Under the pieces are notes generated by a model. That model ran no database searches and was not told the origin of the DNA. It worked only from the letters and a program-made list of their open reading frames with translations. Position numbers and translations under genes: made by a program. From positions 1-62,043 of IMG/VR virus record IMGVR_UViG_3300032322_001602: a DNA stretch of 62,043 bases, one strand, 5' to 3'. This document shows, one piece after another, positions 12,550 to 36,104 of the stretch; the first letter of the stretch is position 1; every line of letters starts with the position of its first letter. This DNA comes from a virus.

Positions 12550-13614
12550 TCAGCCCAACAGCCCTTTCAGGATGCTGTCGAAGTCCGTCGGCGGCTTGCC
12601 GGCGGGAGCGGCCTTTGCGGTCGGCGGAGGCTCGTCCTCGTCAACTGGAGCTGCCTTCTTGGGCTTGTTCGGCTTCGGCTTGGCAGCAGCTGCCGGCGGC
12701 GGCGGCGCAGCTGCGACCACAGGCGGCGGTGGCGGCTCGTCGTCGACGTCGACCTCCTCTTCCTCGACAGGACGGGCCTTCGGCTTGGCAGCCGAGACGG
12801 GAGCTGCAGGTGCGTTCTGGGGCTGACGTGCCGCTGCCTCCGTCCCCACAGTAGTTCCCGTCTCGGCCAGCTCGGTATCCACGGTCTCCGACAGGATGCG
12901 CGTGACCTCTTCGGTCTCCCGCATGGCGACCGCAGCTTTGTACTCGTCTTCCGTCAGATATCGCGTGGCGCGGAACGTCATCTGCGGATGTTCCTTGGCA
13001 GTGTCGAAGCCGACCCGCGTGGCGACGGCGAAGTACTCGACGCCGGCAGGGCTCAGCACCTTCTCGGCGTAGTCCTTCAGCGGGCTCAACGACGCAGGCG
13101 GAACACGCAGCAGGAACAGATGCGCATCCGTCCCCTTGGCAGTGAGTTCGCCAGTGAACACCACGGCCATACGACGAACGTCGGCGCAGGCGCGGCCCTT
13201 CTTGCCGGTCTCGGACGTCCGGCTGCCCCACGCATTCTGCGGGCATGCAGCGCAGAGCGCAGACACCGGATGCTGAACGCCGACGTCCGGGCGGACACCA
13301 TCGGCGGACCAGCACGTCGGCGGCTCGGTCGAGCCCGACTCGTACTTCTTGGCGTAGTAGGTCTTGGACGGCTGGCTGTTGGAGCGGATGAAGACCAGCT
13401 CGATGCTCGGGATCGGATCGTCGTTGGCGTCGAGGAAGTCGCGCTCTTCGCCAGACTTGCGAATGCGCCAGACCTTGCCACGGAACGAGATGATCGGGAA
13501 GCCAGCAGTGACACCGCCGGCAAGCTCATTGCCCAGTGCGCGAGCTGTAGTGACATCCTTGCGCAGATGCGCAGGGAGCTGCCCTTGCGGCAGAAGTGCG
13601 AGTGCGTTCGACAT
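12550..13614 (-). CDS. Candidate ssDNA-binding protein with Cys cluster and acidic tail
   Basis: This 354-residue protein is not recognised with certainty. The N-terminal 200 residues include PTCWSADG, ALCAACPQNAWGS and KGRACADVRR, four cysteines spaced like a small zinc-binding motif. The rest is a Pro/Ala/Lys linker with acidic runs (EEEVDVDDE, DEDE) ending in DFDSILKGLLG. A compact domain followed by a flexible acidic tail is the design of phage ssDNA-binding proteins such as T7 gp2.5, and the place between primase and helicase fits, but the assignment is inference. It has a strong AAGGAGG ribosome site and overlaps the previous stop by one base. Confidence 0.6.
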   Translation of the reverse strand: MSNALALLPQGQLPAHLRKDVTTARALGNELAGGVTAGFPIISFRGKVWRIRKSGEERDFLDANDDPIPSIELVFIRSNSQPSKTYYAKKYESGSTEPPTCWSADGVRPDVGVQHPVSALCAACPQNAWGSRTSETGKKGRACADVRRMAVVFTGELTAKGTDAHLFLLRVPPASLSPLKDYAEKVLSPAGVEYFAVATRVGFDTAKEHPQMTFRATRYLTEDEYKAAVAMRETEEVTRILSETVDTELAETGTTVGTEAAARQPQNAPAAPVSAAKPKARPVEEEEVDVDDEPPPPPVVAAAPPPPAAAAKPKPNKPKKAAPVDEDEPPPTAKAAPAGKPPTDFDSILKGLLG

Positions 13615-14003
13615 TATGAGGCCCTCCTTACTCCGACAGTGTTGATTGAAGTGAACTTGACGCCGGGGACTTCGATCCCCTGCTTCAGCAGCTCACGAAT
13701 GACAGCCTTGTTGGCCTTGATGTCTATGGCCTCCCAGTTGTCAGTCCGTTCGGCCCACTCCTTGAAGCTGGGTCGATCAGTCACGGTGGCTGAGTGCTGT
13801 GTGTTCTTGTAGACGGTGCCGGCATCACAGGCCAAGCTGTCAGCGCCCAGCTCTTCGAGCTTGGCAAGCAGCATGCCTTCCAGCATCTCCATCCCACGAT
13901 TGACCCGCTCCATTGACGCCTTGAACTGTTCGTCAGCCGCCTTCTTGTGGTCACGGAGCGTGATGTAATCCTCGACCAGCTGCGCTGGTGTCTTTTCGAT
14001 CAT
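13614..14003 (-). CDS. Replication-cluster protein with helical N-terminus
   Basis: This 129-residue protein has a charged helical first half (LRDHKKAADEQFKASMERVN) followed by DSLACDAGTVYKNTQHSATV and a short C-terminal domain. The shape resembles small phage proteins of the Gp157/Gam-like type that pair with nucleases or helicases, but I cannot assign a family. The ATG at 14003 has AGGAG eight bases upstream. It follows the SNF2 helicase and is translationally linked to the next gene (TAATG). Confidence 0.6.
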   Translation of the reverse strand: MIEKTPAQLVEDYITLRDHKKAADEQFKASMERVNRGMEMLEGMLLAKLEELGADSLACDAGTVYKNTQHSATVTDRPSFKEWAERTDNWEAIDIKANKAVIRELLKQGIEVPGVKFTSINTVGVRRAS

Positions 14004-14016
14004 GTGTGTCTCCTGC

Positions 14017-15552
14017 TTATTCGAACATTTCCAGCAGCGCACCCTGCAAGGATGCTTTCTGCTGAAGCCGACGATAGAGCCTGCGCTCCACCGCCGTGCC
14101 TGTCAAGTGCATAATCAGCTGCTTTCGCGTTTGCGGCGCACGAGTGATTCGGGCACACGCTTGCTCATAAGTAAGCAGCGATGTCGTCGGGCTGAACCAG
14201 ATAATCGTGTCAGCTGCCGTCAGCGTGAGTCCATGCGACATGCAGCCGGGATGGGCCACAATGATGCGCGGCAGCTCTGCCTGCTGAAACGCAGTAAAGA
14301 TCCGATCCCTCTCCCGCTTGGTAGTCTCACCCGAGACCTGCTCTACAGAGTACCCCAGCTTGTTGAGGTGGTTCGAGATCATAATTGAAGCGTGGACGAA
14401 GTTCACGAAAACTATGACCTTGCCTTCGGCCTCGTCGATCAGCTCGATCAGCGCGTCCATACGTAGGGTGTTATCGAGCGTGACTGGAGGTTTGCCATTG
14501 AGGTATACAAACCCAGCCCCAACCTGCAGCAGCTTGGACATCAGCACGCCTTCGTTGGCAGCGGTCACTTCCCCACTGGCGAATGCAGCCTTCATCCTCT
14601 TGAACAGGTCGTTGTAAACCCTGTTCTGCTCAGCCGTGAGCAAACACTCGCGGCTGTCGAAGATGACGGGTGGCAGCTCCGAGCAGTCGTCCCGCTTGTA
14701 ACGGACGGCTGGTTGCAGCATTTCAAAGACCTTCTCCTTGTGGTCCGACCGGGGTATCCATTTGAAGGTGGACACCTGATGCATGGTGAGGTCTTTGAAC
14801 CCCTTGAAGTACTTCGTTGCCCGCTCAGGCGTCAGGAGTTTCGCCTGCCCCCAAGCATCTGTAGGCTCGTTTGGAGCCGGTGAACCAGTGAGACCCCAAG
14901 CGTAAGCACGCCCTGCAATGACAGCAGACAGAGCTTTCCAGCGATCCGTACGAGCATTACGAAAAGCAGCAAGCTCATCAACAACCACACACCCAATATC
15001 GCTACGCCTGCGCAGGTCGTCGAGAACAGTCTTGATCCCATCGTGGTTGATGACGTAGATCTGATGCGGCTGATTGAGGACTTCGAGCCGCTTATCCTTT
15101 GTTCCATGCAGAACTCCCACGCTGAGGTGGTTGAAGTACCGGAAGACTTCCCGATACCAGACAGTGGTCAGAGTGGAAAGCGGCGCGACGACAAGGCATG
15201 CACCAATGACTCCTTCCTGCAACAGGAAGTCCAGCGCGTAGAGCGTCGAGCGTGTCTTGCCGGTGCCCATCTCCGACAGCACGTAGGCTCGCCTGTTCAT
15301 CGTCAGCATGGCGGCAGTGATCTTCTGCGTCTTCCACGGCACGCCCCCGGCCCAGTCATAGCGAGCCATGATGGGGGCCGGGGCCTTCAGGCCGAGGTTA
15401 CGCGCCAGTCGCACAACCTCGTGCGTGTGCGGCAGCACGATTTTGCCGTTGAGCCGCTCGTGTTCAGGGACGAGGTTAGCCAGCCCTGCGTGGAACGGCA
15501 GGAGAAGAGTGCGCCGAGCGCGGTCTACCGTTACGGGTTGAGGTGTAGCCAT
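14017..15552 (-). CDS. SNF2-family DNA helicase/translocase
   Basis: This 511-residue superfamily 2 ATPase has Walker A MGTGKT (95-100), a DEAH-type box VVDELAAF (D192, E193), motif III LTGSPAPN and motif VI QACARITRAPQ. That order is typical of short SNF2-like phage helicases. It probably moves along double-stranded DNA during replication, recombination or removal of bound proteins. The start at 15552 overlaps the VRR-NUC gene, and no clear ribosome site precedes it, so translation may be coupled to that gene. The neighbouring nuclease suggests a shared role. Confidence 0.88.
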   Translation of the reverse strand: MATPQPVTVDRARRTLLLPFHAGLANLVPEHERLNGKIVLPHTHEVVRLARNLGLKAPAPIMARYDWAGGVPWKTQKITAAMLTMNRRAYVLSEMGTGKTRSTLYALDFLLQEGVIGACLVVAPLSTLTTVWYREVFRYFNHLSVGVLHGTKDKRLEVLNQPHQIYVINHDGIKTVLDDLRRRSDIGCVVVDELAAFRNARTDRWKALSAVIAGRAYAWGLTGSPAPNEPTDAWGQAKLLTPERATKYFKGFKDLTMHQVSTFKWIPRSDHKEKVFEMLQPAVRYKRDDCSELPPVIFDSRECLLTAEQNRVYNDLFKRMKAAFASGEVTAANEGVLMSKLLQVGAGFVYLNGKPPVTLDNTLRMDALIELIDEAEGKVIVFVNFVHASIMISNHLNKLGYSVEQVSGETTKRERDRIFTAFQQAELPRIIVAHPGCMSHGLTLTAADTIIWFSPTTSLLTYEQACARITRAPQTRKQLIMHLTGTAVERRLYRRLQQKASLQGALLEMFE

Positions 15553-21144: not shown

Positions 21145-21183
21145 AAAAAAAGGGAGGCCCACCGCCGAAGCGGTGAACCTCCC
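21145..21183 (-). terminator. Strong intrinsic terminator ending the MoxR-VWA operon
   Basis: Read on the minus strand, a 14-base-pair stem (GGGAGG, two G-U pairs, CACCGC) closes a TTCG loop and is followed by seven T. On the plus strand the two G-U pairs become mismatches and no T run follows, so it works leftward only. It separates the operon ending at 21219 from the replication operon. Confidence 0.85.
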
Positions 21184-21190
21184 AAGGGAC

Positions 21191-21205
21191 TTAACAGGCT
21201 GTTAA
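21191..21205. repeat. Palindrome copy 1 (TTAACAGGCTGTTAA)
   Basis: Exact copy of the 15-bp palindrome. It lies between the stop of the 21219 gene and the terminator, at the downstream border of the MoxR-VWA operon. No promoter is visible in the register seen at copies 3 and 6. Confidence 0.9.
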
Positions 21206-21218
21206 GTGTGTCCGCAAA

Positions 21219-21962
21219 TTACCACCTTGATGTCCTGCGTCCGTTCTCGTTGATGAGCTGCGGTACCTTTCGCCCCCCATCTTCCAGAGTTTCAAGCATG
21301 AGGGCGCTGGCCAGAATCTCGTTGAACGGGACCAGCGCTTCGCGCTGCCATGGCTCAATAAGTTGCTTGTTCAGATCGAGAAGCCCAGTCAGGTGCAGCG
21401 GAGAAGCAGCTTTTCGAGCAATGACTTTATCCTTTGCCCCCGGAGGGAAGAACATCAGCAGCTCGGGCCAGATACGAAACATCTGCCCTCCTGTGCTGGT
21501 GTTCGTATGTAGCTGCCCAAGCTTCTTCAACACAGCAGCCCCTTCGTCGTAGAGTTGTGTTACCGAAGCAGCCCACTGAAGCAGGCCCATCCGCATGTCG
21601 TGGGGTAGTAGCGACATCCCGTACCTGTTCACCTCCATCATGTTCTGTGGACGGGTACCGTCGATAAAGGGTATCTCCAGATACCTCACGGGACTTCCGT
21701 TAAAAGCTATCCGGGTCACATCCCACTGCAGCCTGAAGTTCTCTGTAACCCTGAGAAGCGCTTCCCCCAAACTCTCCATCAGTAGTGCCATAGCCTCGTG
21801 CTGTGCTGGCGTGTGGAACGCAGCATAAACCTCCTCCCCTGAGTAGGGACACGGAGCCAGCGCCCTCATGCGGTTCTGCAGCTTAGCCTCAATCCCTTGA
21901 CGGATTCGCTCATAGATAATTCTATATTCCGTCTCAGCTTTCGTTTCGCCATTTCTAGACAT
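21219..21962 (-). CDS. Hypothetical protein, paralogue of the 21955-22737 product
   Basis: This 247-residue protein ends the MoxR-VWA operon. No known domain was recognised. It shares with its upstream neighbour the layout EEVYAAFHTPAQ / EDMYRSAFHPSTQ near residue 45, LLQWAASV / LLEWYAAV in the middle and WPELLMFFPP / FPELMRIVPA later, so the two probably arose by duplication. The start lies inside the end of that neighbour (8-base overlap), so they are co-translated and may form a heterodimer. Confidence 0.65.
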   Translation of the reverse strand: MSRNGETKAETEYRIIYERIRQGIEAKLQNRMRALAPCPYSGEEVYAAFHTPAQHEAMALLMESLGEALLRVTENFRLQWDVTRIAFNGSPVRYLEIPFIDGTRPQNMMEVNRYGMSLLPHDMRMGLLQWAASVTQLYDEGAAVLKKLGQLHTNTSTGGQMFRIWPELLMFFPPGAKDKVIARKAASPLHLTGLLDLNKQLIEPWQREALVPFNEILASALMLETLEDGGRKVPQLINENGRRTSRW

Positions 21963-22737
21963 CGTCGACCCCCCAGTGTGGTTCGTTGATCCATGCCTTG
22001 ACCCTTGCAGTGGGAGACAGAAGCGTCGCAGAAGTAATCAGCTCTATGAACTGCTTCTTGCTTACCGCCTCTGTGCCGAAGGCTTCGTCAATCCGCTTAC
22101 GCAAAAACGCGATGGTCTTTGCCTGCACCTGATTGGTTTGAGATGAATCCCTTGCGTCCGGAAACGCCGCCGGTACTATGCGCATCAGCTCAGGGAACAC
22201 GTAGGGCACATACCTTGGCCTCGGGAATAGCTCGGCCAGCTGGTAGACGATTCCGACACAGGTTGCCAGCAAGGCATCGTGCTTCTTCACCGCCGCGTAC
22301 CACTCCAGCAGCCTGCTGTCGTTGCGGATGGGATCGCCAAGAACAAAGAAGGCCGGGCCTTTCCCCAACACCGAAGTCTTGGGTATAGGCACTTCTTCGT
22401 CATGCCTGACCCACAGTAGCTTCGTGTCGATGAACTCGACGTCGGGTTGAGGGTGGTGCAGCTGCGTCTGTACCTCGCTGGCACTGAGCATGGAGTAGCA
22501 GACAACAGACCCCTGCCTTGACAGAGCATAGATGTTGAAGGGCAGGGGCTTTAAGAAGATATTGTAGGTCCTTAAGTTGTGCCTATGTGTCATAGCATCA
22601 GCCAGTTGGGTAGAAGGATGGAACGCAGATCGGTACATGTCCTCCGCTGAAAGGGGAAAGGGAATGGACTGCTTGGTCCGGTACAGCAGGTCCACCAGTG
22701 AGATGCGCAGTATCTTCTGCAGGTCCACGCTACTCAT
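21955..22737 (-). CDS. Hypothetical protein, paralogue of the 21219-21962 product
   Basis: This 260-residue protein has no recognised family. It shares the AFHPSTQ, L-x-W and FPEL blocks with the next gene. The middle (VEFIDTKLLWVRHDEE) matches a similar place in the partner (VRYLEIPFIDGTRP), both strand-like and followed by a helical half. It overlaps the VWA gene by 8 bases. Co-expression with a MoxR ATPase and a VWA protein suggests a substrate, adaptor or structural partner of that machine; this is inference. Confidence 0.65.
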   Translation of the reverse strand: MSSVDLQKILRISLVDLLYRTKQSIPFPLSAEDMYRSAFHPSTQLADAMTHRHNLRTYNIFLKPLPFNIYALSRQGSVVCYSMLSASEVQTQLHHPQPDVEFIDTKLLWVRHDEEVPIPKTSVLGKGPAFFVLGDPIRNDSRLLEWYAAVKKHDALLATCVGIVYQLAELFPRPRYVPYVFPELMRIVPAAFPDARDSSQTNQVQAKTIAFLRKRIDEAFGTEAVSKKQFIELITSATLLSPTARVKAWINEPHWGVDDV

Positions 22738-23986
22738 ACTCTGCCACCTTCACCTTCACCACTTCACCGAACGGCGGCACGACGTCTTGCGTCATCACCC
22801 ACACGACGGGGTAATCGGGAGGCGTCTTGGGAAACGTGCCGTACCCGTCCGTGAAGTAGATCATGACCACCGGCTCGACCCCCATCTCCTCGATCTTCTC
22901 GAACGCCGGCTCAAACGATGTGCCGCCACCGCCACGCAGCGCAGGCTTCATCTGGTAGATGTCAGTGTAGCTTTCCAGCTCATGCACATCGTGTACCCGT
23001 GCATCGCACGACATCAGGAACACCTTCTCCGGCTTGCAGGTTGTCAGGATGTCCGCAACCTCAGCGTATGCGGCATCGAACTCCCGCTCCCCCATGCTGC
23101 CGGACGTGTCAACCACCCACGCGATCGTGCCCGCACCGAACCCGGTGTAGCTCGGGTAGTAGATCTTCTGCGTCACCAGCCGACGCCGATGCGGGGAAGC
23201 CCACGTTGTGGTGTCGCGTTCTGCAGCACGAGTGATCAGGTGCCGAAGCATCTCGCGCCAGTTGACCTGTGGGGTCAGAATGTTCGCGACCCACCTCTCC
23301 AGCGAGCCGGGCATCTTGCCCATCGCCTTGGCCTGATTGACCGCCGAAGCAATGGCCCGCTTCATCTCAGCCTCGGTACACTGCGCCGGTTCGTACACAT
23401 GTGTGTCGAGCGGCTTGCGATTTCCCATCCCTTCGTTGCTGGCGTCACCACCCCCTTCTCCCTCTCCATCCTTGGGCTTGGGATCACCCTCGTCGCCTCC
23501 ACCCCCACCTCCGCCTTGAGGTGGCGGCGGAGGTTTCTTCATCAGCTCCTTGTAGACATCCTCGGCCAGCATTCCTCCGTTGAATGCCGAATCGAGCAGT
23601 CCTCCCTTCGGCATGGTGCCGCACTGCGAAGTCGAGAGCATGTCGTTGATCACAAGGTCGCACGCGACATTCCAGACTCCGGGGTGGAACTTGTCCCCCT
23701 CGAAGCCGACGTCCTTGTATCGCTTGGCTCGATCCATGTGCAGCCACATGCAGTGGGCGATCTCGTGGCAGCAGATGAAGACCGCTTCTGGTAGAGACAG
23801 CGATGCTAGGAACTTCTCGTCGAACCAGATGATCTTGCCGTTCGTGCCGGCAGTAGGGATATGCCCGAACGTCCCGACACGCAGGTCAAGCGTGTCGAGC
23901 ATCAGGCTGGCAAAGAACGGCGTGTGCAGTAGCATCGCCGTCCGCATTTCGGTGAAACGCTTCTTGGCTTCAAAGCTGATGTCCAT
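22730..23986 (-). CDS. Metalloprotease-like/VWA protein (DUF2201 type)
   Basis: This 418-residue protein has two parts. The N-terminal part has HEIAH (H74, E75, H78) in a helix, preceded by a strand-rich region, as in the putative metallopeptidase domain DUF2201. A Gly/Pro/Asp linker covers about 150-190. The C-terminal VWA domain has the metal-binding DTSGSMGE (D293, S295, S297), GGGGTSFEP and YFTDGYG. VWA proteins of this kind pair with MoxR AAA ATPases, which remodel or load metal-bound partners, and the ATPase is in the same operon. Its ribosome site AAGGAGG overlaps the end of the upstream gene. Confidence 0.85.
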   Translation of the reverse strand: MDISFEAKKRFTEMRTAMLLHTPFFASLMLDTLDLRVGTFGHIPTAGTNGKIIWFDEKFLASLSLPEAVFICCHEIAHCMWLHMDRAKRYKDVGFEGDKFHPGVWNVACDLVINDMLSTSQCGTMPKGGLLDSAFNGGMLAEDVYKELMKKPPPPPQGGGGGGGDEGDPKPKDGEGEGGGDASNEGMGNRKPLDTHVYEPAQCTEAEMKRAIASAVNQAKAMGKMPGSLERWVANILTPQVNWREMLRHLITRAAERDTTTWASPHRRRLVTQKIYYPSYTGFGAGTIAWVVDTSGSMGEREFDAAYAEVADILTTCKPEKVFLMSCDARVHDVHELESYTDIYQMKPALRGGGGTSFEPAFEKIEEMGVEPVVMIYFTDGYGTFPKTPPDYPVVWVMTQDVVPPFGEVVKVKVAEYE

Positions 23987-24446
23987 TGGTCCTCCTTCTA
24001 AGCCTTCTTGAAAATGTCGCGATGGCACCGGGGAACGCAAACCAGTACTGGCGGGTCTCGATCGCAAGTATCCCCCCGGTGCCGTTCTCGATGTAGCTCA
24101 GGGGTTGAAGCCCAAGCGCCTTCTGCACTGGATAGGTCATTCTACGCACGCCCCCTGCAGGGAAAGGATGTGTGACCCCCAGCATGTGCAGCTTGCCGAT
24201 CAGTTCGTCTTGGTACTCCGGCAGCACAATGAATGCTGCAATGACGAACGCCTTGACGTCTTCCCACACCCCCCTGTCCATGCGGCTGAGGAGAGGAGAA
24301 GACAGGTGCCGATCATCTACAAGCTGCATTGCCAGCTTGTCTGCACGCTCCTTCCCCAGAAACGCATCGAACTCGTCAAGGCTCATCCCCTTGTGGATCC
24401 TTCTCAGTTTGCCAGTCAACTGGAAGTAGTGAAGCGGGTCCGTCAT
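23970..24446 (-). CDS. Hypothetical protein of the MoxR-VWA operon
   Basis: This 158-residue protein begins MTDPLHYFQLTGKLRR and is mostly helical (LDEFDAFLGKERADKLAMQL), with a strand-like end (GILAIETRQYWFAFPG). It was not recognised. The ATG at 24446 overlaps the previous stop as ATGA and has GGGGGG upstream. Its end covers the start and ribosome site of the VWA gene, so the two are tightly coupled. Confidence 0.6.
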   Translation of the reverse strand: MTDPLHYFQLTGKLRRIHKGMSLDEFDAFLGKERADKLAMQLVDDRHLSSPLLSRMDRGVWEDVKAFVIAAFIVLPEYQDELIGKLHMLGVTHPFPAGGVRRMTYPVQKALGLQPLSYIENGTGGILAIETRQYWFAFPGAIATFSRRLRRRTNGHQL

Positions 24447-25639
24447 GCGCCCCCCTTCGCGAGCCGGTCCATCATCCTGATGGCCGTGCGCGCATCCTCG
24501 CCCACTTGCGCACGGATACCCGGTGTGTTGCGCAACGCCTCCGTGTCGTGTACGCACAGGTGCTGGGTAATGTACGCCCGGATCTCCTCCACCCGCTGAT
24601 CGTTGGTGACGTTGAGGTGCTTGAGCTGATGTGCCACCGACCGCACGTTGTCCACCAGCGTGTAGTGGAACTGGTTGTCGGGATTGGACAGCCGCTCAGC
24701 CATGCGGCCTACGGCTTCGTGCGCCCGCACCCACAGGTCCTGCATCGCATTCTCCAGCATCTTCTTGGTCTTGTCCTGCAGAGCATCTGCCAGCGCTTGG
24801 CACTGCTGGGCCGGCAGTCCCTTGAAGTCGCTACTGGCCGGCACGGGCTGGAAGTCGAAGGACAGATCGAAGTGCCCTCGAATGCTGTCGACGTTGGGAT
24901 ACTCGGTGATCATGAACCGCTTGCCAAGATTCTTCCGTGCCAGTTCGATCAGCTTCGGGTACTCCGGCACGAACTCGTCGAGCGCTTCGTTCATGCTCGC
25001 CTTGCGCTTGCCCAGCCTGCCGATGAAGTCGAAGAACGACGTGTTGGGCAGCATGCGTGCGCCAGTCCGCCGACCCTGATCGTCGAGCCCCGTCGTTGTC
25101 CACGGGAGTGTCATCTCGTAGAACTCAGCACGGGCCGAGTCGATCTCCCGATGGATCTTCTTGAGCTTCTCGTCGGCTCCCGACAGCAGGTGCTTGCGGG
25201 TCTCGAACGCATCCGCATTGGCGTCGCTCGCACTGGCCGCATCCTTGCTGGCCTGCCGGTCTTTCACCTTCGCGTGCCAACGCTTGGTGTTGAGCGTAAC
25301 CAGCGTGGCGAAGTTGCGGATGTCCAGCGTCTTCGCAATGTCGTCGGTTGCGAATGTCGGCAGGGCAACGGACGGCAGCGCGTACTCCGTTCTGTCCGCT
25401 GTGTCAGTAAACACGCTGTCGCTCGCCTTGTTGATGACACCCGTGGCCGCGTCCGTCGTGCCTTGCGCCTCGGCGGTTAACAGGCTGTTAACCACGTCGG
25501 CGTCGATCGCCTTCAGCATGCCCTCTTTCATTGCGTTGACCACCGGCACCTCGTGGGCCGGGATGATAGCGCTTGGCTTGGGGTCTTCCCCACTCAGGAT
25601 GTCAGCCAGTAGCGCACTGATGTCGTCGAAGTCAGCCAT
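24443..25639 (-). CDS. Helical protein of the MoxR-VWA operon (DUF3150-like?)
   Basis: This 398-residue, mostly helical protein has two coiled-coil-like parts (near 140-175 and 280-330) and a central LPNTSFFDFIGRLGK. Proteins of similar size and shape, some annotated DUF3150, accompany CobS-like ATPases and CobT/VWA proteins in phages, but I cannot confirm the family by eye. It carries palindrome copy 2 in its coding sequence at codons 50-55 (VNSLLT). The start at 25639 follows GGAGG and overlaps the upstream small gene. Confidence 0.6.
   Translation of the reverse strand: MADFDDISALLADILSGEDPKPSAIIPAHEVPVVNAMKEGMLKAIDADVVNSLLTAEAQGTTDAATGVINKASDSVFTDTADRTEYALPSVALPTFATDDIAKTLDIRNFATLVTLNTKRWHAKVKDRQASKDAASASDANADAFETRKHLLSGADEKLKKIHREIDSARAEFYEMTLPWTTTGLDDQGRRTGARMLPNTSFFDFIGRLGKRKASMNEALDEFVPEYPKLIELARKNLGKRFMITEYPNVDSIRGHFDLSFDFQPVPASSDFKGLPAQQCQALADALQDKTKKMLENAMQDLWVRAHEAVGRMAERLSNPDNQFHYTLVDNVRSVAHQLKHLNVTNDQRVEEIRAYITQHLCVHDTEALRNTPGIRAQVGEDARTAIRMMDRLAKGGA
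25477..25491. repeat. Palindrome copy 2, inside a gene
   Basis: Exact 15-bp copy extended to GTTAACAGGCTGTTAAC. It lies 148-162 bases into the 25639 gene and encodes NSLLT on the minus strand, the same residues as copy 8 in an unrelated gene. Confidence 0.9.
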
Positions 25640-25796
25640 TGTGTGCGTCCTCCATTGTTCGCTTGATGAGCTGCTGCTTCAGAGATTCCTTCAGCAGTTG
25701 AGACTGCTTGAGAACTTTCTGGGTCGCAGCGGTTTTCCGCCTTGCCTCGGCAAGCTGCTGTTCCAGCCGCCACCTCGGCAATGTCGTCAGTTTCAC
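25632..25796 (-). CDS. Small coiled-coil protein
   Basis: This 54-residue protein starts with GTG at 25796 behind GAGGAGG and overlaps the previous stop as GTGA. It is almost one basic helix with heptad-like leucines (LEQQLAEARRKTAATQ, KVLKQSQLLKESLKQQL). It could be a short adaptor or coiled-coil partner in the operon; no family is recognised. Its stop lies within the first codons of the 25639 gene. Confidence 0.55.
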   Translation of the reverse strand: MKLTTLPRWRLEQQLAEARRKTAATQKVLKQSQLLKESLKQQLIKRTMEDAHNG

Positions 25797-26191
25797 GGTA
25801 CCTCCTCTGTTTTAGGAAGCTTCAGGATGAACTGCTGGTATGCCTGCGGTTGCAAGACAACATCGCCGAGACCCCACTGCTTGCTGCTGTACTGTACGTC
25901 GATGCAGTTCTTGTGATGGCCGGACAGCGCGATCCGCATATAGATTCCTGCATGCAGGATCTCAATCTTGTCCGTGTCGATGTAGTGCTTGCGGATTGTC
26001 GGGCCTCCGACCGTATCGCAGATGAAGCTAGTCACCCAGACATCCGTCTGCTTCTGCGTGTTCATGAACCTGTTAAGTTCATTGACGGCAGTCTCCCTCT
26101 GCCGTGCCAAGTCAGCGATGTGCAGCTGCGCCCACTGCGGCAGGGCCTCGATCCTCGCGTGGATCGTAAGGTCGGGTATGCGTTTCTTCAT
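25793..26191 (-). CDS. Hypothetical protein of the MoxR-VWA operon
   Basis: This 132-residue protein has an N-terminal helical half (LPQWAQLHIADLARQRETAV) and a strand-rich second half with GHHKNCIDVQYS. No known family. The ATG at 26191 overlaps the MoxR stop as ATGA, so it is translated right after the ATPase. It includes a half-copy of the 15-bp palindrome near 26069, which I count as chance. Confidence 0.55.
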   Translation of the reverse strand: MKKRIPDLTIHARIEALPQWAQLHIADLARQRETAVNELNRFMNTQKQTDVWVTSFICDTVGGPTIRKHYIDTDKIEILHAGIYMRIALSGHHKNCIDVQYSSKQWGLGDVVLQPQAYQQFILKLPKTEEVP

Positions 26192-27249
26192 GAACGCATC
26201 AGCATGTTGGCAGCCATCACCAGATCCTTGTTCTCGCGCAGCCAACTGGCGAAGTCAGGAGTCTGGATCATCTGCGGGCAGCGACGCAGCACGGCTTTCA
26301 GGCCAGCCACCTGAAACTCCTTGCCCAGCCGCCGCAGGTACGTGAACGCCGGCTTGGCACTCATGCTGTCAACACGATGCGCCACCATCTGCATAACGGC
26401 GTAGGTCGCGTCGGGCTTGGAAGGAACCGACACCTTCTCAGGCGCAGCGATGATGTCTTCCCACTTCGGCAGTTCCTCAGCCACGCGCAGGAACGCCACG
26501 AACTCGGCAGCTGCCCCTTCGCCGATGTAGCCCGCCGCCGCCTCGGTGAACAGCGCCATTGGCAGCTTGCCAATCAGGTGGCTGACCTTGGTGAACGTGC
26601 GCGGCGTGCAGAAGGGACCGGGCTTCTCTGGAACGGTGTCCTGAAAGACGATGCCCGGCTTGACCTTCGCGAATGCAATGGTGAACGGGTTCAGCCCCTG
26701 CCGCTCGGCCCAGTCCACCCACGAGTCGAGACTCGGCTCGATGTTCAGCCGCATCTTGCGATTGTCGATGAACGCCAATCCGCGCCCGACACCAGAGCGA
26801 TCCTTCTCGCGATTGCTCGCGCCGATGACCATGTAGCTGATGGGCAACTGACTGTCGCCCACCCTTCCACTGTGGAGCAGCTCCGCCGCCGGCTTCACCA
26901 CGTCGTGGTTGGCTTGGCCCAGCTCATCCAAGAACACGATGCCGTACTCCGAGTCCCCCAGCCGTGGCATCCACGGAGCCTTGGTGAACGTCATGATCGG
27001 CGTGCCGTCCGTGTCCCGCCCCGGCAGTCCGAAGCCTCGGACGTCCGGCGGCTCGACCGTCGTCAGGAAGAACGGCTTGATCGTCACCGGCTTGCCCAGC
27101 TTCTTCGACAGCTTCTCGCCCGCTTGGTACACAGCGGCGGACTTGCCCAGCCCCGGACCGCTCACCATCTCAATGGCGAAACGCTCGCCGGTCTCCTGCT
27201 GGAGGCAGAACACATCGACGATCAGGTCGATGGCTTGATTCAGGTACAT
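26188..27249 (-). CDS. MoxR-type AAA ATPase
   Basis: This 353-residue ATPase is first in its operon. Walker A is GPGLGKSA (31-38), Walker B is IVFLDELGQ (D108, E109) and sensor 1 is IGASNREKD; PDVRGFGLPG between them is typical of MoxR/CobS-like ATPases. Such ATPases form rings and, with VWA partners, remodel protein complexes or insert metals. Here the VWA partner is four genes downstream. It has its own promoter with the palindrome across the start site, and an AAGGAG ribosome site. Confidence 0.9.
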   Translation of the reverse strand: MYLNQAIDLIVDVFCLQQETGERFAIEMVSGPGLGKSAAVYQAGEKLSKKLGKPVTIKPFFLTTVEPPDVRGFGLPGRDTDGTPIMTFTKAPWMPRLGDSEYGIVFLDELGQANHDVVKPAAELLHSGRVGDSQLPISYMVIGASNREKDRSGVGRGLAFIDNRKMRLNIEPSLDSWVDWAERQGLNPFTIAFAKVKPGIVFQDTVPEKPGPFCTPRTFTKVSHLIGKLPMALFTEAAAGYIGEGAAAEFVAFLRVAEELPKWEDIIAAPEKVSVPSKPDATYAVMQMVAHRVDSMSAKPAFTYLRRLGKEFQVAGLKAVLRRCPQMIQTPDFASWLRENKDLVMAANMLMRS

Positions 27250-27264
27250 GCGATCTCCTTGCCC

Positions 27265-27279
27265 TTAACAGGCTGTTAA
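27265..27279. repeat. Palindrome copy 3 at the MoxR promoter
   Basis: Exact copy. Its right end overlaps two bases of the -10 box of the MoxR promoter, and its centre (27272) falls at the predicted transcription start. It also ends 15 bases before the MoxR start codon. This is the position of a classical repressor operator. Confidence 0.92.
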
Positions 27280-27306
27280 TATAACACAATCGTGTGGCGA
27301 AATCAA
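27278..27306 (-). promoter_or_regulatory. Promoter of the MoxR-VWA operon
   Basis: On the minus strand TTGATT (27301-27306), a 17-base spacer and TATATT (27278-27283) make a good sigma70 promoter. It starts just after the stop of the 27308 gene. The predicted start near 27271 is inside palindrome copy 3, giving a leader of about 22 bases. Confidence 0.75.
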
Positions 27307-29190: not shown

Positions 29191-29205
29191 TTAACAGCCT
29201 GTTAA
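29191..29205. repeat. Palindrome copy 4
   Basis: Exact copy, in the 47-base gap between the 29222 and 29174 genes, 16 bases before the GTG start. Weak promoter candidates only. Confidence 0.9.
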
Positions 29206-29221
29206 TCGATGATGATAGCGA

Positions 29222-29647
29222 TCAGGAGTTGCTGATGCGCGTTGCCTTGCCGATGACCTTGACCTTGCGATAGGTCGCCATGTTCTTATACGACCTCTTG
29301 TTCTCGATGGGGCAGGCCGAATACAGGAAGTCCTTGCGCTCGACCTGCAACCGGATGACCCGAAGATGGCGACGATTGCCGAACTGCTCGATGCCGTACC
29401 GCCTCGCGTGCGCACGGGTCTTGAACACGTAGAGTCCCTCTAATGTCTTGTGGAAAGTGCGGCCAGACTGCGGCTCGGTGAGCGACACGCTCGTCAATGC
29501 GCGTGTGCCAAGCTTGAGTGTCTCACCCGCCTTGTAGCGCTTGGGGTAGATGGGAGCCCACCACGAACCAGTGTGCTTGATCTTCACGACCTTGTAGACG
29601 AAACGATTGCGCCACGGCTTGGCCAGACGGTCGATTACGAAACACAT
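29222..29647 (-). CDS. Hypothetical basic protein
   Basis: This 141-residue protein is rich in Lys, Arg and aromatic residues (VYKVVKIKHTGSWWAPIYP, EGLYVFKTRAHARRYG). The YGIEQFGNRRHLRVIRLQ part looks like an alternating strand/helix fold. The ATG at 29647 follows GGGAGG; the much longer open frame upstream lacks coding character. It is not recognised. Confidence 0.55.
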   Translation of the reverse strand: MCFVIDRLAKPWRNRFVYKVVKIKHTGSWWAPIYPKRYKAGETLKLGTRALTSVSLTEPQSGRTFHKTLEGLYVFKTRAHARRYGIEQFGNRRHLRVIRLQVERKDFLYSACPIENKRSYKNMATYRKVKVIGKATRISNS

Positions 29648-29648
29648 G

Positions 29649-30056
29649 TTACACCTCCCGCTTTTGCAGCTCGATGACCCACCAATCGCATCCATCCTGC
29701 GCGACCTTCGCATACTCGATCGCGTCCTCGGGCGAAGCGAATGGCCCAACATGGTGGAAGCCGTCCGCAGGCGTACCAGCGATGACGATCCAGCTTCCGC
29801 TCTGCTCAGTCGCAGGCTGAGGCTTGAGTCCGCCACCTTCCAGCAACTGAAGGCGGGAGAAGACTTCAGTGAGTTCCCCGACAGTACGTGTGCGGAACTG
29901 CTCCTGATCGACGAGCCTGCTGTTGAACGCCTTGTGCTGGCGTGTTGAAGCCTGCGCCGCCTTGCGCAGGTTCGCGACTTCGTCTTCCAGCACATGGATT
30001 GCCCGCCACAAATTGTCGAACTTGGCTTCCAGTGTTCTCTTGGTTAAGAGACTCAT
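29649..30056 (-). CDS. Coiled-coil protein with small C-terminal domain
   Basis: This 135-residue protein has an N-terminal coiled coil (AIHVLEDEVANLRKAA) and a C-terminal part with SGSWIVIAGTPADGFHHVG and EDAIEYAKV. The ATG at 30056 has AAGGGG upstream; a GTG at 30065 overlapping the previous stop is the other choice. Function unknown. Confidence 0.55.
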   Translation of the reverse strand: MSLLTKRTLEAKFDNLWRAIHVLEDEVANLRKAAQASTRQHKAFNSRLVDQEQFRTRTVGELTEVFSRLQLLEGGGLKPQPATEQSGSWIVIAGTPADGFHHVGPFASPEDAIEYAKVAQDGCDWWVIELQKREV

Positions 30057-30061
30057 GTAGT

Positions 30062-30532
30062 TCACCCCTTGTTGAGCGAGTTGATGAACCGCAGCAGGGC
30101 CTCGGGCGTGCCAGTTACGGCCAGCGCCTCAGCCTTCGCGATGACGGCCTGCACCTGTTTCTCGATCGAGCGAGGCACGTTGATCGTGAACTTGTCCTCC
30201 CACCGCTTGGTCTTGGGCAGGATGTAGGAGACGATGTCCACATACGACGAGCGAGAGTCGTCGTACTCGATCTCGAACACTCTGACGAGATCCTCGAACG
30301 CCTTGTTGGGCTTGACCTTCAGGATCAGGTAGTCGCGCTCCAGATAGAGCTTGTCGGTGTAGTCCAGTGGATTGGCTGAGACTGCCGCCCGGATGTTCTT
30401 GAGGGCCGTGTTGCGCTCAGCCACCAGTCGCTCTCTGGCTGCGTCGTTCATCTTGCGAAGATGCGCCTCAGTAGCCACGGTCAGCATGGCGAGCTGCCGA
30501 TTGGTGAGGGGCTTGGGGTTCTTGGTGTTCAT
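30062..30532 (-). CDS. Hypothetical charged helical protein
   Basis: This 156-residue protein has helices at the start (TNRQLAMLTVATEAHLRKMN) and end, with a central strand region (KLYLERDYLILKVKPNK). Not recognised. The ATG at 30532 follows AAAGGAC; palindrome copy 5 is 18 bases upstream. Confidence 0.55.
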   Translation of the reverse strand: MNTKNPKPLTNRQLAMLTVATEAHLRKMNDAARERLVAERNTALKNIRAAVSANPLDYTDKLYLERDYLILKVKPNKAFEDLVRVFEIEYDDSRSSYVDIVSYILPKTKRWEDKFTINVPRSIEKQVQAVIAKAEALAVTGTPEALLRFINSLNKG

Positions 30533-30550
30533 GGTCGTGTGTCCTTTGGC

Positions 30551-30565
30551 TTAACAGCCTGTTAA
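30551..30565. repeat. Palindrome copy 5
   Basis: Exact copy. The TAA at its right half is also the stop codon of the 30562-30783 gene, and its left end is 18 bases before the 30532 start. Confidence 0.9.
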
Positions 30566-30783
30566 TGCTTCGTGTTGGAAACGTCCGCGCCCAGCAGCGC
30601 GGCATCGATGATAGCGATCACCTTCAGGCAGAGTTCGAGGTTGGCCTCCTTGTTGACGTCAGGGTTGGCGCTCTTGCAGCGGTTGTAGGTCAGGATCCAC
30701 TGCCAGCGCATGAATTCGTAGCTGCTCCGCGCCGCACGCACATCCGTGTCGGGCTGCAAATCGAGATCGGCGCATCCGTCCAT
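30562..30783 (-). CDS. Hypothetical small protein
   Basis: This 73-residue protein with two cysteines reads WQWILTYNRCKS and ANLELCLKVIAIIDAALLG, mostly helical. No family. Its stop codon is supplied by palindrome copy 5. It follows the 30789 gene closely. Confidence 0.5.
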   Translation of the reverse strand: MDGCADLDLQPDTDVRAARSSYEFMRWQWILTYNRCKSANPDVNKEANLELCLKVIAIIDAALLGADVSNTKH

Positions 30784-30788
30784 TGCCG

Positions 30789-31124
30789 TTACTCCTTGGG
30801 TATGAGAAGTTGCTTTTGCAGGTTGTACTCCCGCAGCAGTGCCGCGTCGCGTTGCTGCTCCATGCTGGCCAGCGTGGTCTCCAGCCTGTCGATCACGCCA
30901 GCGTGTTCCGCCAGCGCGGCTTGCTGCTGGCGCACCTGCTCGCGCAGAGTCTGCACGTTGTCACTGATGGGATTGCCTAGCTTGTCTACTTGAGTGGCAA
31001 GATAATCCTCGTAGGTCACGAACGTCCCGTTGGGCACCTCGACGCAGCCATCCTGATACTCACCGGGCTCGTCGGCATCGCGGGGATGCTCGTACACCTT
31101 CCAGCGTTTCACCTGCTCGGTCAT
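30789..31124 (-). CDS. Coiled-coil protein
   Basis: This 111-residue protein has a small N-terminal domain (VKRWKVYEHPRDADEPGEY, NGTFVTYEDYLA) followed by a long coiled coil (LREQVRQQQAALAEHAGVI). The ATG at 31124 overlaps the membrane protein stop. The design (short domain plus coiled coil) is common among early phage accessory proteins. Confidence 0.6.
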   Translation of the reverse strand: MTEQVKRWKVYEHPRDADEPGEYQDGCVEVPNGTFVTYEDYLATQVDKLGNPISDNVQTLREQVRQQQAALAEHAGVIDRLETTLASMEQQRDAALLREYNLQKQLLIPKE

Positions 31125-31639
31125 GGGATTCCCTCCTCCTCTGGGCAACGGCTGTCCCGCTCAGCCAGTGCCTGCTGGTACAGCGCCGCGTCGCTGGGTG
31201 TCAGGGTGCAGGCGTTGGTCATCTGCCAGCAGTTCTCGTAGGCCACGATGCGCTGCTCTAGGACGGCACAGGAAGGGCGTGGCAGGTCGCGCAGTCCGGG
31301 CAGGAAGAACAGCAGGAGCAAGAGCAGGAACGCCGCGAGGAGCAGCAGCGGGCCTACAGCGCTGACGTTCCCTCCCTGCCGCTTGCGGTAGTGCCGCAGC
31401 AGGGTCGAACCCGCTGGCTCCTTCATTCGCACGGCATGCTCGATGCCCATGTAGTCGGTCACTTCGTCCACGAAGTCGAAGCTCTCCACTCCATTGCTGA
31501 GCATGGCTTCGTCGGTCTTGCTCTGGGCTTCCTTGGCGGTTCGGGCCATCACGTAGTGGTCGTAGAAGCAGGTACGGGCTACACGGACTGCCACGGTATA
31601 GACTGCCCACGAGGTGCGCTTGGTCGGCTTAGTGCCCAT
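31121..31639 (-). CDS. Membrane protein with periplasmic Cys domain
   Basis: This 172-residue protein has a cytoplasmic half (ARTCFYDHYVMARTAKEA, resembling a small alpha/beta fold), then a very hydrophobic stretch (VGPLLLLAAFLLLLLLFF), then about 55 residues with four cysteines (SCAVLEQRIVAYENCWQ, NACTLTP, RCPEEE) that could form disulfides outside the inner membrane. The ATG at 31639 has better ribosome-site spacing than the one at 31645. Possibly an exclusion or lysis-control factor; that is inference. Confidence 0.6.
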   Translation of the reverse strand: MGTKPTKRTSWAVYTVAVRVARTCFYDHYVMARTAKEAQSKTDEAMLSNGVESFDFVDEVTDYMGIEHAVRMKEPAGSTLLRHYRKRQGGNVSAVGPLLLLAAFLLLLLLFFLPGLRDLPRPSCAVLEQRIVAYENCWQMTNACTLTPSDAALYQQALAERDSRCPEEEGIP

Positions 31640-31641
31640 CG

Positions 31642-31806
31642 TCATTCTCCCTTGGTGTGTGGAATCTTGAACTTGCCCTGATCGTCGGTCCAGAGGTCGG
31701 GACGCTTCGACCAGTGCTTCTTGTGAGCGTGCTTGGCATGCTGGTCCATGCGTATTGCACGTTTCAGGGCCTTCGGGCTGGGGATGGTGCGATCGCGGTG
31801 CTTCAT
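31642..31806 (-). CDS. Small basic protein, first in the leftward early operon
   Basis: This 54-residue basic protein includes PSPKALKRAIRMDQHAKHAH and KKHWSKRP. The ATG at 31806 follows CAGGAG. It lies downstream of a promoter with palindrome copy 6. Unknown; the charge suggests nucleic-acid contact. Confidence 0.6.
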   Translation of the reverse strand: MKHRDRTIPSPKALKRAIRMDQHAKHAHKKHWSKRPDLWTDDQGKFKIPHTKGE

Positions 31807-31877
31807 CGTCGTTCTCCTGAAGGCGGACAGTTGAAACCCACTCGGGGCCTTCGGGCCGAAGGGGTTTTGGGGAGCGG

Positions 31878-31892
31878 TTAACAGCCTGTTCA
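31878..31892. repeat. Palindrome copy 6 (one mismatch)
   Basis: Reads TTAACAGCCTGTTCA on the plus strand. Like copy 3 it overlaps two bases of a -10 box on its right side, in the same register. Confidence 0.85.
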
Positions 31893-31919
31893 GATAAAGT
31901 CCGGGTAATTGTCTGTCCA
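31891..31919 (-). promoter_or_regulatory. Candidate promoter of the leftward early operon
   Basis: On the minus strand TGGACA (31914-31919, 5 of 6 to consensus), 17 bases, then TATCTG (31891-31896, 3 of 6). Start near 31884, inside palindrome copy 6. The weak -10 lowers confidence, but spacing and register match the MoxR promoter. Confidence 0.5.
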
Positions 31920-31940
31920 ATTACCGTATGTTTTGGATTT

Positions 31941-32161
31941 TCCGGCCAATTAATTTGCGTGCAGAATCAAGGACTTAACCTGAAATGTCTTAATGTCCAG
32001 TTGTTTCAAACGAGAGAGCGCGTAGCAGTTTAGTGATTTTGGCTCTAGGCCCTCCAGCTCGGCTCACGCAAATTCTCCCGTGGGGGCCTCGTTTAAAACA
32101 ACTGGACATTTAGACATTTCTTTATATATATATGATTCTATTGGCTTATTAATTGGCCGAC
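31941..32161. repeat. Nested diverged inverted repeat (two 74-base arms)
   Basis: Arms 31941-32014 and 32088-32161 align end to end in opposite orientation without gaps. The inner 33 bases match 31 of 33, the outer 12-base block CGGCCAATTAAT matches exactly and AGAATCA between them matches; the rest has diverged. A 73-base spacer separates the arms. Both arms hold TGTCCAGTTGTTT. It may be a palindromic origin or paired control element. Confidence 0.85.
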
Positions 32162-32318
32162 CCCCCCTCAAAAAGCTGGACAAGATGCGGCAGAAAGCCG
32201 GACAGTTCTCGCAAATGGGGTGCATCCGTGCCCAAAATGATAGTGACCCCCCGGGCCGGCGGCCCATCGGCCCGAAACGCCGCATGCGTTGTGCAACGCT
32301 AGGTTTGAAACCTTGCAT
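32064..32318 (-). CDS. Possible small protein across the control region
   Basis: An 84-codon frame starts with ATG at 32318, seven bases after GGGAGG, and palindrome copy 7 lies 14 bases upstream, the same layout as three other early genes. The product would have CENCPAFC and otherwise little character. Against it, the frame runs through hairpins and one arm of the inverted repeat, and the sister arm has stops in the matching frame. A real but young gene and a chance frame are both possible. Confidence 0.35.
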   Translation of the reverse strand: MQGFKPSVAQRMRRFGPMGRRPGGSLSFWARMHPICENCPAFCRILSSFLRGGRPINKPIESYIYKEMSKCPVVLNEAPTGEFA

Positions 32319-32332
32319 TGTGGAACCTCCCA

Positions 32333-32347
32333 TTAACAGCCTGTTAA
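32333..32347. repeat. Palindrome copy 7
   Basis: Exact copy, extended to ATTAACAGCCTGTTAAC. It lies 14 bases before the ATG of the doubtful 32318 frame and close to the leftward terminator at 32392. Confidence 0.9.
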
Positions 32348-32391
32348 CCCTTGGTGTGCCACAAATCAGCGGGCTCGCCCGTTCTGCGGGC

Positions 32392-32428
32392 AAAAAAGGG
32401 GCGCTGCCGGGATAACCCCGGCAGCGCC
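32392..32428 (-). terminator. Intrinsic terminator after the 32445-33062 gene
   Basis: On the minus strand a perfect 12-base-pair GC-rich stem (GGCGCTGCCGGG) with a 5-base loop, then two C and six T. It starts 16 bases after the stop of the 33062 gene and isolates that gene from the early operon. Confidence 0.85.
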
Positions 32429-32444
32429 AATCGACTGGGGAACT

Positions 32445-33062
32445 TCAGCCGAAGAGCTTCTTCGCCTTCGCCGCGTCACGGTACTCGATCAGGTCATCCG
32501 GCAGGCCGATGTGCAGGTAATCGGCCACGGCCACGAGTGCGGCCTTCGCGTTGCCGTCCATCGGCTTGAACTTGGTCATGCCGATCAGAGCCTTCAGATG
32601 CGCTGCCGCCGACTTCTTGTAGTCGGGCTTCTTTTCGACAGTGAACGCCGCGACCGCATCGGCCACAGACTCGCCGCCATCCAGCGACTTCTGAAGTTGC
32701 GTGCAGAACTTCTTGAGTTTGTCGATGTTGGCCGCGACAAGGGCAAACGGCTTCGCTTCCAGCGCCACGATGACGGGGGCGCAGCGCGCCAACTTCTTGG
32801 CAGCCGACACGAGCGCCGGGATCGAATCCTTGGCAATCGTCGGTCGCTTCGCGTACATCGCCTCACACGCATCGGCAACCCGCTGGGCTTCGGCTTTGTC
32901 GAGGAGCCGGCCCTTCAGAGCCTTTGTGCCGACGTCTTCCAAGATCGCTTCGCGGAACGTCATCACGAGTCCGCCGCGATCTGTCGCCTGCACGATGCTG
33001 GCCGCGAGATGGTTCACCACAGCATCGGTTAACAGGCTGTTAACTTTCGCATTCGCCTTCAT
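32445..33062 (-). CDS. Helical protein, monocistronic, with operators at both sides of its start
   Basis: This 205-residue protein is almost all helix (KGRLLDKAEAQRVADACEAM, SAAKKLARCAPVIVALEAK). No known domain and no clear helix-turn-helix was seen. It is transcribed alone: palindrome copy 9 is 67 bases before the start, copy 8 is within codons 8-13, and a terminator follows. That two-operator layout is typical of self-controlled regulators or of highly made early proteins, so it is a candidate for the regulator itself. The ATG at 33062 follows GGAG. Confidence 0.65.
   Translation of the reverse strand: MKANAKVNSLLTDAVVNHLAASIVQATDRGGLVMTFREAILEDVGTKALKGRLLDKAEAQRVADACEAMYAKRPTIAKDSIPALVSAAKKLARCAPVIVALEAKPFALVAANIDKLKKFCTQLQKSLDGGESVADAVAAFTVEKKPDYKKSAAAHLKALIGMTKFKPMDGNAKAALVAVADYLHIGLPDDLIEYRDAAKAKKLFG
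33029..33043. repeat. Palindrome copy 8, inside a gene
   Basis: Exact copy extended to GTTAACAGGCTGTTAAC; with the preceding valine codon it encodes VNSLLT, residues 7-12 of the 33062 product. Its centre is 101 bases from that of copy 9. Confidence 0.9.
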
Positions 33063-33129
33063 TGCATGTACTCCACTGCACGGCCGGGATGGCCGCTCAC
33101 TAAGCCCTTCGCGGGAGAGGGGCATTCGC

Positions 33130-33144
33130 TTAACAGGCTGTTAA
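33130..33144. repeat. Palindrome copy 9
   Basis: Exact copy in the 250-base divergent region between the 33062 gene and the rightward genes. Confidence 0.9.
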
Positions 33145-34459: not shown

Positions 34460-34770
34460 CTCATCCTGCACTGGCCCCTATCTACGAGATTCGGCAGACC
34501 ACTCCGAATTCGGTTGACGGCAAGTGGCGGCGGCTGATAACCCACCTCGAAATCCGCCGGGCGCAGAACGGCTTCGTCCTCATGGGGTTCAACGCCGCGC
34601 CATCACCCAACTTCCCCGATAACGACAGTCGTGTTTGCTTCGTTTGTGAGTCAGTAGAGTCGCTCTGCAACACGGTCGCGGCTCTGGCGTCCGACACTGG
34701 TGACTTTGCATGGGGTAGCTGTGTCGATCTGCCGATCACCAATATCTTCAAGGAAAATAGGAGCCTTTGA
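34456..34770 (+). CDS. Hypothetical protein
   Basis: This 104-residue protein has strand-rich stretches (KWRRLITHLEIRR, NGFVLMGFNAAPS) and a CFVCESVESLC segment. Not recognised. It overlaps both neighbours by a few bases. Confidence 0.5.
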   Translation: MTHPALAPIYEIRQTTPNSVDGKWRRLITHLEIRRAQNGFVLMGFNAAPSPNFPDNDSRVCFVCESVESLCNTVAALASDTGDFAWGSCVDLPITNIFKENRSL

Positions 34771-34949
34771 TGCCGCGCCGCTCACTCAACGGCATGCGGA
34801 TGCATGTCATCATCACCAAGCATCAGGACCGGGACCTGCGTGACCTCTCGAAACGCACCGGGCTGACCGCCGCCGAGCATATCCGCCGGGCCATCGATGG
34901 CTACTTGCTCGCGGCCTACAACTCCGGCAAACTCGAATTGAAGCGGTAG
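34770..34949 (+). CDS. Ribbon-helix-helix DNA-binding protein
   Basis: This 59-residue protein has MHVIITKHQDRDLRDLSKRT as the strand and first helix, then GLTAAEHIRRAIDGYLL as the second helix: the size and pattern of CopG/Arc-type ribbon-helix-helix proteins, which bind short inverted repeats as paired dimers. It is the only recognisable transcription-factor fold in the window, so it is a candidate for binding the 15-bp palindrome; that link is inference. The ATG at 34770 follows AGGAG. Confidence 0.65.
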   Translation: MPRRSLNGMRMHVIITKHQDRDLRDLSKRTGLTAAEHIRRAIDGYLLAAYNSGKLELKR

Positions 34950-35958: not shown

Positions 35959-36104
35959 AGGCCAAGATCCTCGACATGTTCGGGCGAGTCAATCCTCAGC
36001 ACAAGCAGGTGGTGCTGGAGAAGCTGCAGCAGCAGCCCGACAACGAGAGACGGGTCAATTACCTGACCGGCTGGCTGAAGATGGACGCGAAACTCAAGTG
36101 CTGA
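35937..36104 (+). CDS. Hypothetical small helical protein
   Basis: This 55-residue protein begins MEDEEQLKAKILDMFG and continues HKQVVLEKLQQQPDNERRV, two helices. The ATG at 35937 follows GAGGGGG. Its stop overlaps the GTG start of the glycosyltransferase, so it is the lead gene of the sugar cassette. Unknown function. Confidence 0.5.
   Translation: MEDEEQLKAKILDMFGRVNPQHKQVVLEKLQQQPDNERRVNYLTGWLKMDAKLKC

Follow-up and report, generated by a model that had tools for sequence, protein, structure and literature searches.

An operon of eight minus-strand genes, A to H, was analysed in the viral record IMGVR_UViG_3300032322_001602 of IMG/VR (positions 1 to 62,043; this whole stretch of 62,043 nucleotides is referred to as the window). 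Three of its products, a MoxR-type AAA+ ATPase (A), a DUF3150-like protein (D) and a metallopeptidase fused to a VWA domain (F), are encoded together also in other viruses and in plasmids. On balance, the sequences favour a reading in which these three proteins would constitute a machine that is driven by ATP to remodel its client and probably to cut it, is expressed with the early genes, and acts on a complex inside the cell that is no part of the virion. The pair of MoxR ATPase and metallopeptidase-VWA protein is already known in phages; what is new is the A-D-F triad, together with its occurrence in plasmids as well as phages and the palindromes placed along with it.

The three conserved components

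The association of D with the pair was examined in viral contigs and in plasmids. The scan of viral contigs, in which D alone was the query, returned 66 D loci. Loci were counted if they were distinct and flanked on each side by 4.5 kb or more, and in 28 of 28 such loci, which are distinct sequences and not independent lineages, MoxR and VWA genes were present on the strand of D. The gene order was MoxR-D-VWA in 20, D-MoxR-VWA in five and MoxR-VWA-D in three of them. Relatives of F were found in 116 plasmid records and relatives of D in 42, nearly all from Burkholderiales. In all 17 records that appeared in both the D and the F plasmid listings, D preceded the VWA gene by at most about 115 nt and shared its strand. 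Two plasmids, one of Burkholderia and one of Cupriavidus, were opened, and both had the order MoxR, D, VWA. The Burkholderia plasmid was typed as conjugative and its triad adjoins the type IV secretion genes; the triad of the Cupriavidus plasmid lies near a DNA repair exonuclease gene. No virion genes were annotated around the triad in these two plasmids. No fusion joining any of A, D and F was found, and in the window four genes (B, C, D and E) separate A from F.

Gene D (24443-25639, minus strand) encodes 398 amino acids, of which residues 1-109 are predicted to be disordered. It was assigned by profile, fold and co-occurrence. By sequence, the protein of the window had no match in PHROGs, NCBIfam or the isolated phages. 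It did not match the Pfam family DUF3150 (PF11348) either, and two of eight relatives reached E 0.0023 at best, while a further check against this family gave no match; because the curated cut-off was not attained, D is called only DUF3150-like. A profile built solely from the window and four close relatives detected homologues in two more viral contigs, in the cyanophage MinM2 and in Cupriavidus and Burkholderia plasmids. With this profile the MinM2 and Burkholderiales plasmid matches had E values of 1e-23 to 1e-29 (9e-24 for MinM2, whose protein is annotated as DUF3150), and the homologues in MinM2, the Cupriavidus plasmid and the Burkholderia plasmid were always flanked by MoxR and VWA. The profile was too divergent for the bacterial-genome collection. 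The top fold match of the D model was a DUF3150-annotated phage protein (E 2e-12, with a modest TM-score of 0.30-0.40), and the fold search of the PDB with D gave nothing significant. Two matches were rejected as coiled-coil similarity, a weak one of D to ZorA (PADLOC, E 5e-4) and, in the PDB, one of the D profile to apolipoprotein A-IV. Among the papers searched, none naming DUF3150 was found.

Gene A (26188-27249, minus strand, 353 amino acids) matched phrog_1297 (E 1e-63). The best match of a profile of 20 homologues was midasin (E 1e-30), followed by CbbQ and NorQ. Walker A, Walker B, sensor N and the arginine finger are kept, and residues G33, K36, D108, E109, N146 and R217 were invariant or nearly so among 20 homologues. 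Gene F (22730-23986, minus strand, 418 amino acids) encodes a metallopeptidase with the motif HExxHxxxxH fused to a VWA domain with a metal ion-dependent adhesion site (MIDAS), as judged from Pfam and residue conservation. The DUF2201_N metallopeptidase domain (PF13203) was found with E 2e-37 and 129.8 bits against a Pfam cut-off of 23.2, and the DUF2201 VWA-like domain (PF09967) with E 6e-23 and 81.8 bits against a cut-off of 26.4. The zinc motif (H74, E75, H78, H83) and the MIDAS residues (D293, S295, S297, T356, D380) were invariant across 21 phage and plasmid homologues. Since the catalytic and MIDAS residues of A and F are conserved, the ATPase and peptidase/MIDAS functions appear to be kept by selection. 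The phrog_1297 and Pfam matches agree with the preliminary description of the DNA, made from its letters, in which a MoxR AAA ATPase and a DUF2201-like metalloprotease/VWA protein were seen as a remodelling module.

A tblastn search with F found the VWA gene in just 520 of 50,697 phage records, and no relative of F turned up in the search of bacterial genomes. In PHROGs the family of F is labelled 'HNH endonuclease', which was rejected, the domains being metallopeptidase and VWA. The same label, to which these domains lend no support, is carried by members of the metallopeptidase-VWA family in RefSeq records, N4 gp25 included (L018, 3165-4307).

Operon organization and palindromes

After correction of the starts, the eight open reading frames run from 27249 to 21219, and each of the seven junctions overlaps by 4-17 nt (e.g. 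ATGA, GTGA). Because all junctions overlap, A-H is likely to be a single transcript with translational coupling, in agreement with the coherent, end-to-start operon described earlier. A promoter-like site of the sigma-70 type, TTGATT-17 bp-TATATT, is located directly 5' of gene A (27278-27306, minus strand). Over the whole scan the number of promoter-like sites was not above that in shuffled sequences (5 versus 4.6), therefore the operon promoter was assigned from where it lies and from the recurrence of this arrangement upstream of MoxR in two relatives (L003 and L008). An intrinsic-terminator-like hairpin with 14 pairs and a T tail was detected by sequence scan 3' of gene H (21152-21183, minus strand).

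The 15-bp palindrome TTAACAGSCTGTTAA is present in nine copies, eight of them perfect, all within 21.2-33.1 kb; counted as matches on the two strands, 18 were found versus 0.27 expected. Three copies are in or at the operon. One (TTAACAGGCTGTTAA, 27265-27279) lies over the -10 end of the promoter-like site and the point where transcription is expected to start, one (25477-25491) lies inside gene D at codons 50-54 (NSLLT), and one (21191-21205) is between the stop codon of H and the terminator. The six further copies begin at 29191, 30551, 31878, 32333, 33029 and 33130 (29191-33144) in the upstream early region. Thus, the operator-like palindromes that the preliminary description had placed at the promoter, within the operon and at its end were all recovered; palindromes and terminator do frame the operon, and the set of sites extends upstream into the early region.

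The palindromes were limited to the operon and the early region in all five clade contigs searched whole, with 8-11 copies in the four relatives of the window. The words differ: TTAACAGnCTGTTAA occurs in the window and L008, TTAACAGnCTGTTAA plus TTAGCAGnCTGCTAA in L003, and TTGCTAGnCTAGCAA in L002 and L009. Their places are conserved: sites lie at the end of H and in the 5' part of D in five of five phages, before the VWA gene in four of five (one degenerate; absent in the window) and at the MoxR promoter in three of five. The site in D, for which two different words are used, encodes NSLLT under the first and ASLAT under the second; disorder is predicted for this part of the protein. Because the encoded peptide changes with the palindrome word, the conserved element inside D appears to be a DNA word and not a peptide. 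The central base of the palindrome was found in both senses, and the site is not asymmetric or oriented with transcription.

A candidate for the regulator is a ribbon-helix-helix protein of 60 amino acids (34767-34949, plus strand; PF12651, E 1.9e-5), encoded divergently from the early genes. Homologues were found in both relatives that share the palindrome class of the window (G001 and G003); the contigs of the other class do not cover the region. The regulator, for which the ribbon-helix-helix protein is one possibility, would bind the palindromes and so block the promoter and possibly also elongation.

Palindromes of other sequence were observed in three further phages. MinM2 (L013, 738-14136) has its own palindrome, GGTTCAGnCTGAACC, at the MoxR/DUF3150/VWA gene boundaries. 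L047 (2855-10986), a phage with MoxR-DUF3150-VWA, has eight copies of TCGTTACnnGTAACGA (TCGTTACn2GTAACGA). In Rhizobium phage RHph_TM3_14A (L010, MN988472.1), 38 sites of GTTACCNNNNNNGGTAAC (GTTACCn6GGTAAC, at most one mismatch) are spread across the whole 61-kb genome.

Instead of being operators, the palindromes might serve partition, replication, packaging or DNA condensation, in which case the operon would not be controlled through them. We consider this possible but doubtful. A promoter was not recognisable at most copies, dispersed palindromes in Cluster O mycobacteriophages are without assigned function (PMC4351075), and the genome-wide distribution in RHph_TM3_14A points in the same direction. 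However, the palindrome overlaps the -10 end of the MoxR promoter-like site in the same arrangement in the window, L003 and L008, other sites mark the ends of operons or lie close to start codons, and in the five clade contigs none was found outside the early arm. Cluster A stoperators and the Cluster O palindromes resemble the sites of the window in that many copies of one site are found at operon starts, operon ends and inside genes. The stoperators are asymmetric and oriented, and the Cluster O sites are 17 bp long and genome-wide (PMC4351075), whereas those of the window are 15 bp long, palindromic and present in one arm only.

Accessory genes and genomic setting

The other five genes of the operon, all on the minus strand, differ in their distribution. 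Gene B (25793-26191, 132 amino acids) has a partial match to DUF7239 (PF23886, E 4.6e-9), and its homologue was not found in the relatives. Gene C (25632-25796, 54 amino acids) is coiled-coil-like, and a similar small open reading frame is present at the same place in four relatives (sequences compared by eye). Gene E (23970-24446, 158 amino acids) is variable among the relatives, its sole match being in L003 (31%). Genes G (21955-22737, 260 amino acids) and H (21219-21962, 247 amino acids) are paralogues (hhalign probability 93, E 3e-7), which were confined to the near clade apart from weak matches in L036-L038. They diverge fast, with 23-31% identity versus 63-76% for A and F. In sequence and fold searches H gave three weak, sub-threshold similarities to Nmad5, a nucleotide-modification associated domain, a hint that can serve as a lead; the model of H is of low quality (pLDDT 66) and gave only weak fold matches. 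The hypothetical gene after the VWA gene in RHph_TM3_14A was tried as a G/H homologue and rejected, as the similarity was not significant.

The preliminary description had grouped B, C, D, E, G and H as six uncharacterised proteins, a set that has to be divided: D regularly accompanies the pair as a third component, G and H are paralogues restricted to the near relatives, C keeps its place in the near relatives, and B and E are variable. It had also named partners unrelated in other phages as an outcome that would speak against the unit. The gene-neighbourhood check gave this outcome for B and E but not for D, which was present alongside the pair elsewhere.

The window derives from a podovirus-like phage; for its major head protein, the closest match was in the Rhizobium phages RHph_TM (54.6%). 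No DNA-level relative of the window was found among isolated phages. The operon is followed on the same strand by replication genes (primase/helicase, helicase, exonuclease, DNA polymerase and deoxynucleoside monophosphate kinase), and the structural genes are on the other strand. A MoxR-VWA pair in the non-structural arm, near a DNA polymerase or helicase gene, was seen also in RHph_TM, N4-like and Roseobacter phages. Neighbours of the D loci with recognisable function were mainly replication proteins (DNA polymerase, helicase, primase); large terminases were also among them, apparently on the opposite strand, in one subgroup. Lysogeny is unsupported because no integrase of family PF00589 was found in the window (other recombinase types were outside this search).

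Some other genes of the window were recorded. A protein of 3130 amino acids (53-9445, plus strand) matches lytic-tail/endolysin families close to the N-terminus and, in the direction of the C-terminus, a DarB-like family. Upstream of the terminase gene, genes resembling methyltransferases and glycosyltransferases stand in a row (36098-41684, plus strand). The gene at 13614-14042 (minus strand), which sits among the replication genes, matches a 'minor head protein' family and a Mu Gam-like end-protection family.

Possible function of the A-D-F machine

RavA-ViaA, CbbQ-CbbO and midasin consist, like the module of the window, of a MoxR-type AAA+ motor and a VWA partner bearing a MIDAS. To our knowledge, the VWA partner in these systems has no zinc-peptidase domain, and the clients differ. 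By analogy with these families, F would grip the client through its MIDAS and A would pull on it or remodel it using ATP, while the peptidase of F would cut the client where it is exposed. D could be an adaptor or scaffold, a helical partner of the other two, and B, C, E, G and H would be accessory proteins. The client may be host machinery, a defence complex or the replication complex of the phage itself. It is placed inside the cell, and not in the virion, because the module is carried by plasmids, has replication genes as neighbours and has its palindromes in common with the early genes. In a more specific and more tentative version, A-D-F would be a distinct remodelling protease of phages and plasmids that dismantles a specific host complex, possibly one of defence or of the nucleoid, soon after DNA entry, and would be switched by a fast-changing palindrome-binding regulator whose sites mark the beginning, the interior and the end of the operon. 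Nothing in the analysis shows the operon acting on a defence system.

The pair without D has been described before. In N4-like phages (Schitoviridae), gp24 (ATPase) and gp25 (vWFA) are homologous to A and F, have the same order and lie in the non-structural arm near replication genes. They are core genes with no function assigned (PMC4193335). In the four stretches that were read, no D between or near these genes, no G or H and no dispersed palindrome was found. The window departs from a pair of adjacent genes of the N4 type in that B, C, D and E intervene. In jumbo phages a pair with the same domains, MoxR and a VWA protein with an N-terminal metallopeptidase, has been described, with a part in virion assembly proposed for it, and the passage on it mentions no third component (PMC7824862). 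The MoxR-DUF3150-VWA genes of MinM2 and the Burkholderiales plasmids have the three components of the window in the same order, but they were annotated separately, their accessory genes are other ones, and the plasmid stretches contain no palindromes. Thus, the earlier remark that such a unit has no described role holds as far as experiments are concerned, but the pair as such had already been described.

Several observations weigh against an intracellular machine of three parts. D was undetectable in most isolated phages having the MoxR-VWA pair, hence it is not required everywhere. In cyanophage S-TIM54 the pair is located between structural genes and Hsp20, the MoxR ATPase of phage PA5oct (L029, 1981-3096) carries the note 'ESI-MS/MS' (electrospray ionization tandem mass spectrometry) like the structural proteins, which may mean association with the virion, and in roseophage RPP1 a mid-phase structural module is near gp24/gp25 (PMC4193335). 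These last three would fit a chaperone-protease of virion assembly or maturation, in which A and F would fold, remodel or cut a phage structural protein, as has been proposed for the MoxR/metallopeptidase-vWA pair of jumbo phages (PMC7824862); a two-tailed archaeal virus offers an analogy. We regard such a role as unlikely for the operon of the window. The occurrence of the triad on plasmids, one of them conjugative, is the main argument against a purely virion role, since A-D-F is there found in Burkholderiales without a virion context in the conjugative plasmid that was opened. Moreover, the operon is apart from the structural arm, next to the replication genes, and has its palindromes in common with the early genes, and N4 gp24 and gp25 are middle and not late genes (PMC4193335).

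Another explanation is that the module acts in conflicts with other genetic elements, as superinfection exclusion or as a defence of phages and plasmids, similarly to the ternary conflict systems whose core is formed by MoxR-vWA couples (PMC7159879). A mobile conflict module would be expected in phages as well as in plasmids, as is the case here, and the fast divergence of G and H relative to A and F is consistent with it. However, PADLOC yielded no meaningful match, that of D to ZorA being weak and coiled-coil-like, and no VMAP or toxin-like effector domain was recognised by Pfam in the eight proteins (the coverage of VMAP in the Pfam and PADLOC libraries was unchecked). The core-gene status of the pair in N4-like phages also suggests a basic function. 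A conflict module seems improbable, even more so than a virion chaperone.

A remodelling machine acting inside the cell would bear on N4 gp24 and gp25, core genes that have so far been without known function. The triad on plasmids argues for a task other than virion assembly and offers small, genetically handy settings for tests, in which D, as the constant third subunit, would provide a handle for pull-down. The palindromes, which change their letters jointly while holding their places, would exemplify the co-evolution of a regulator with its binding sites.

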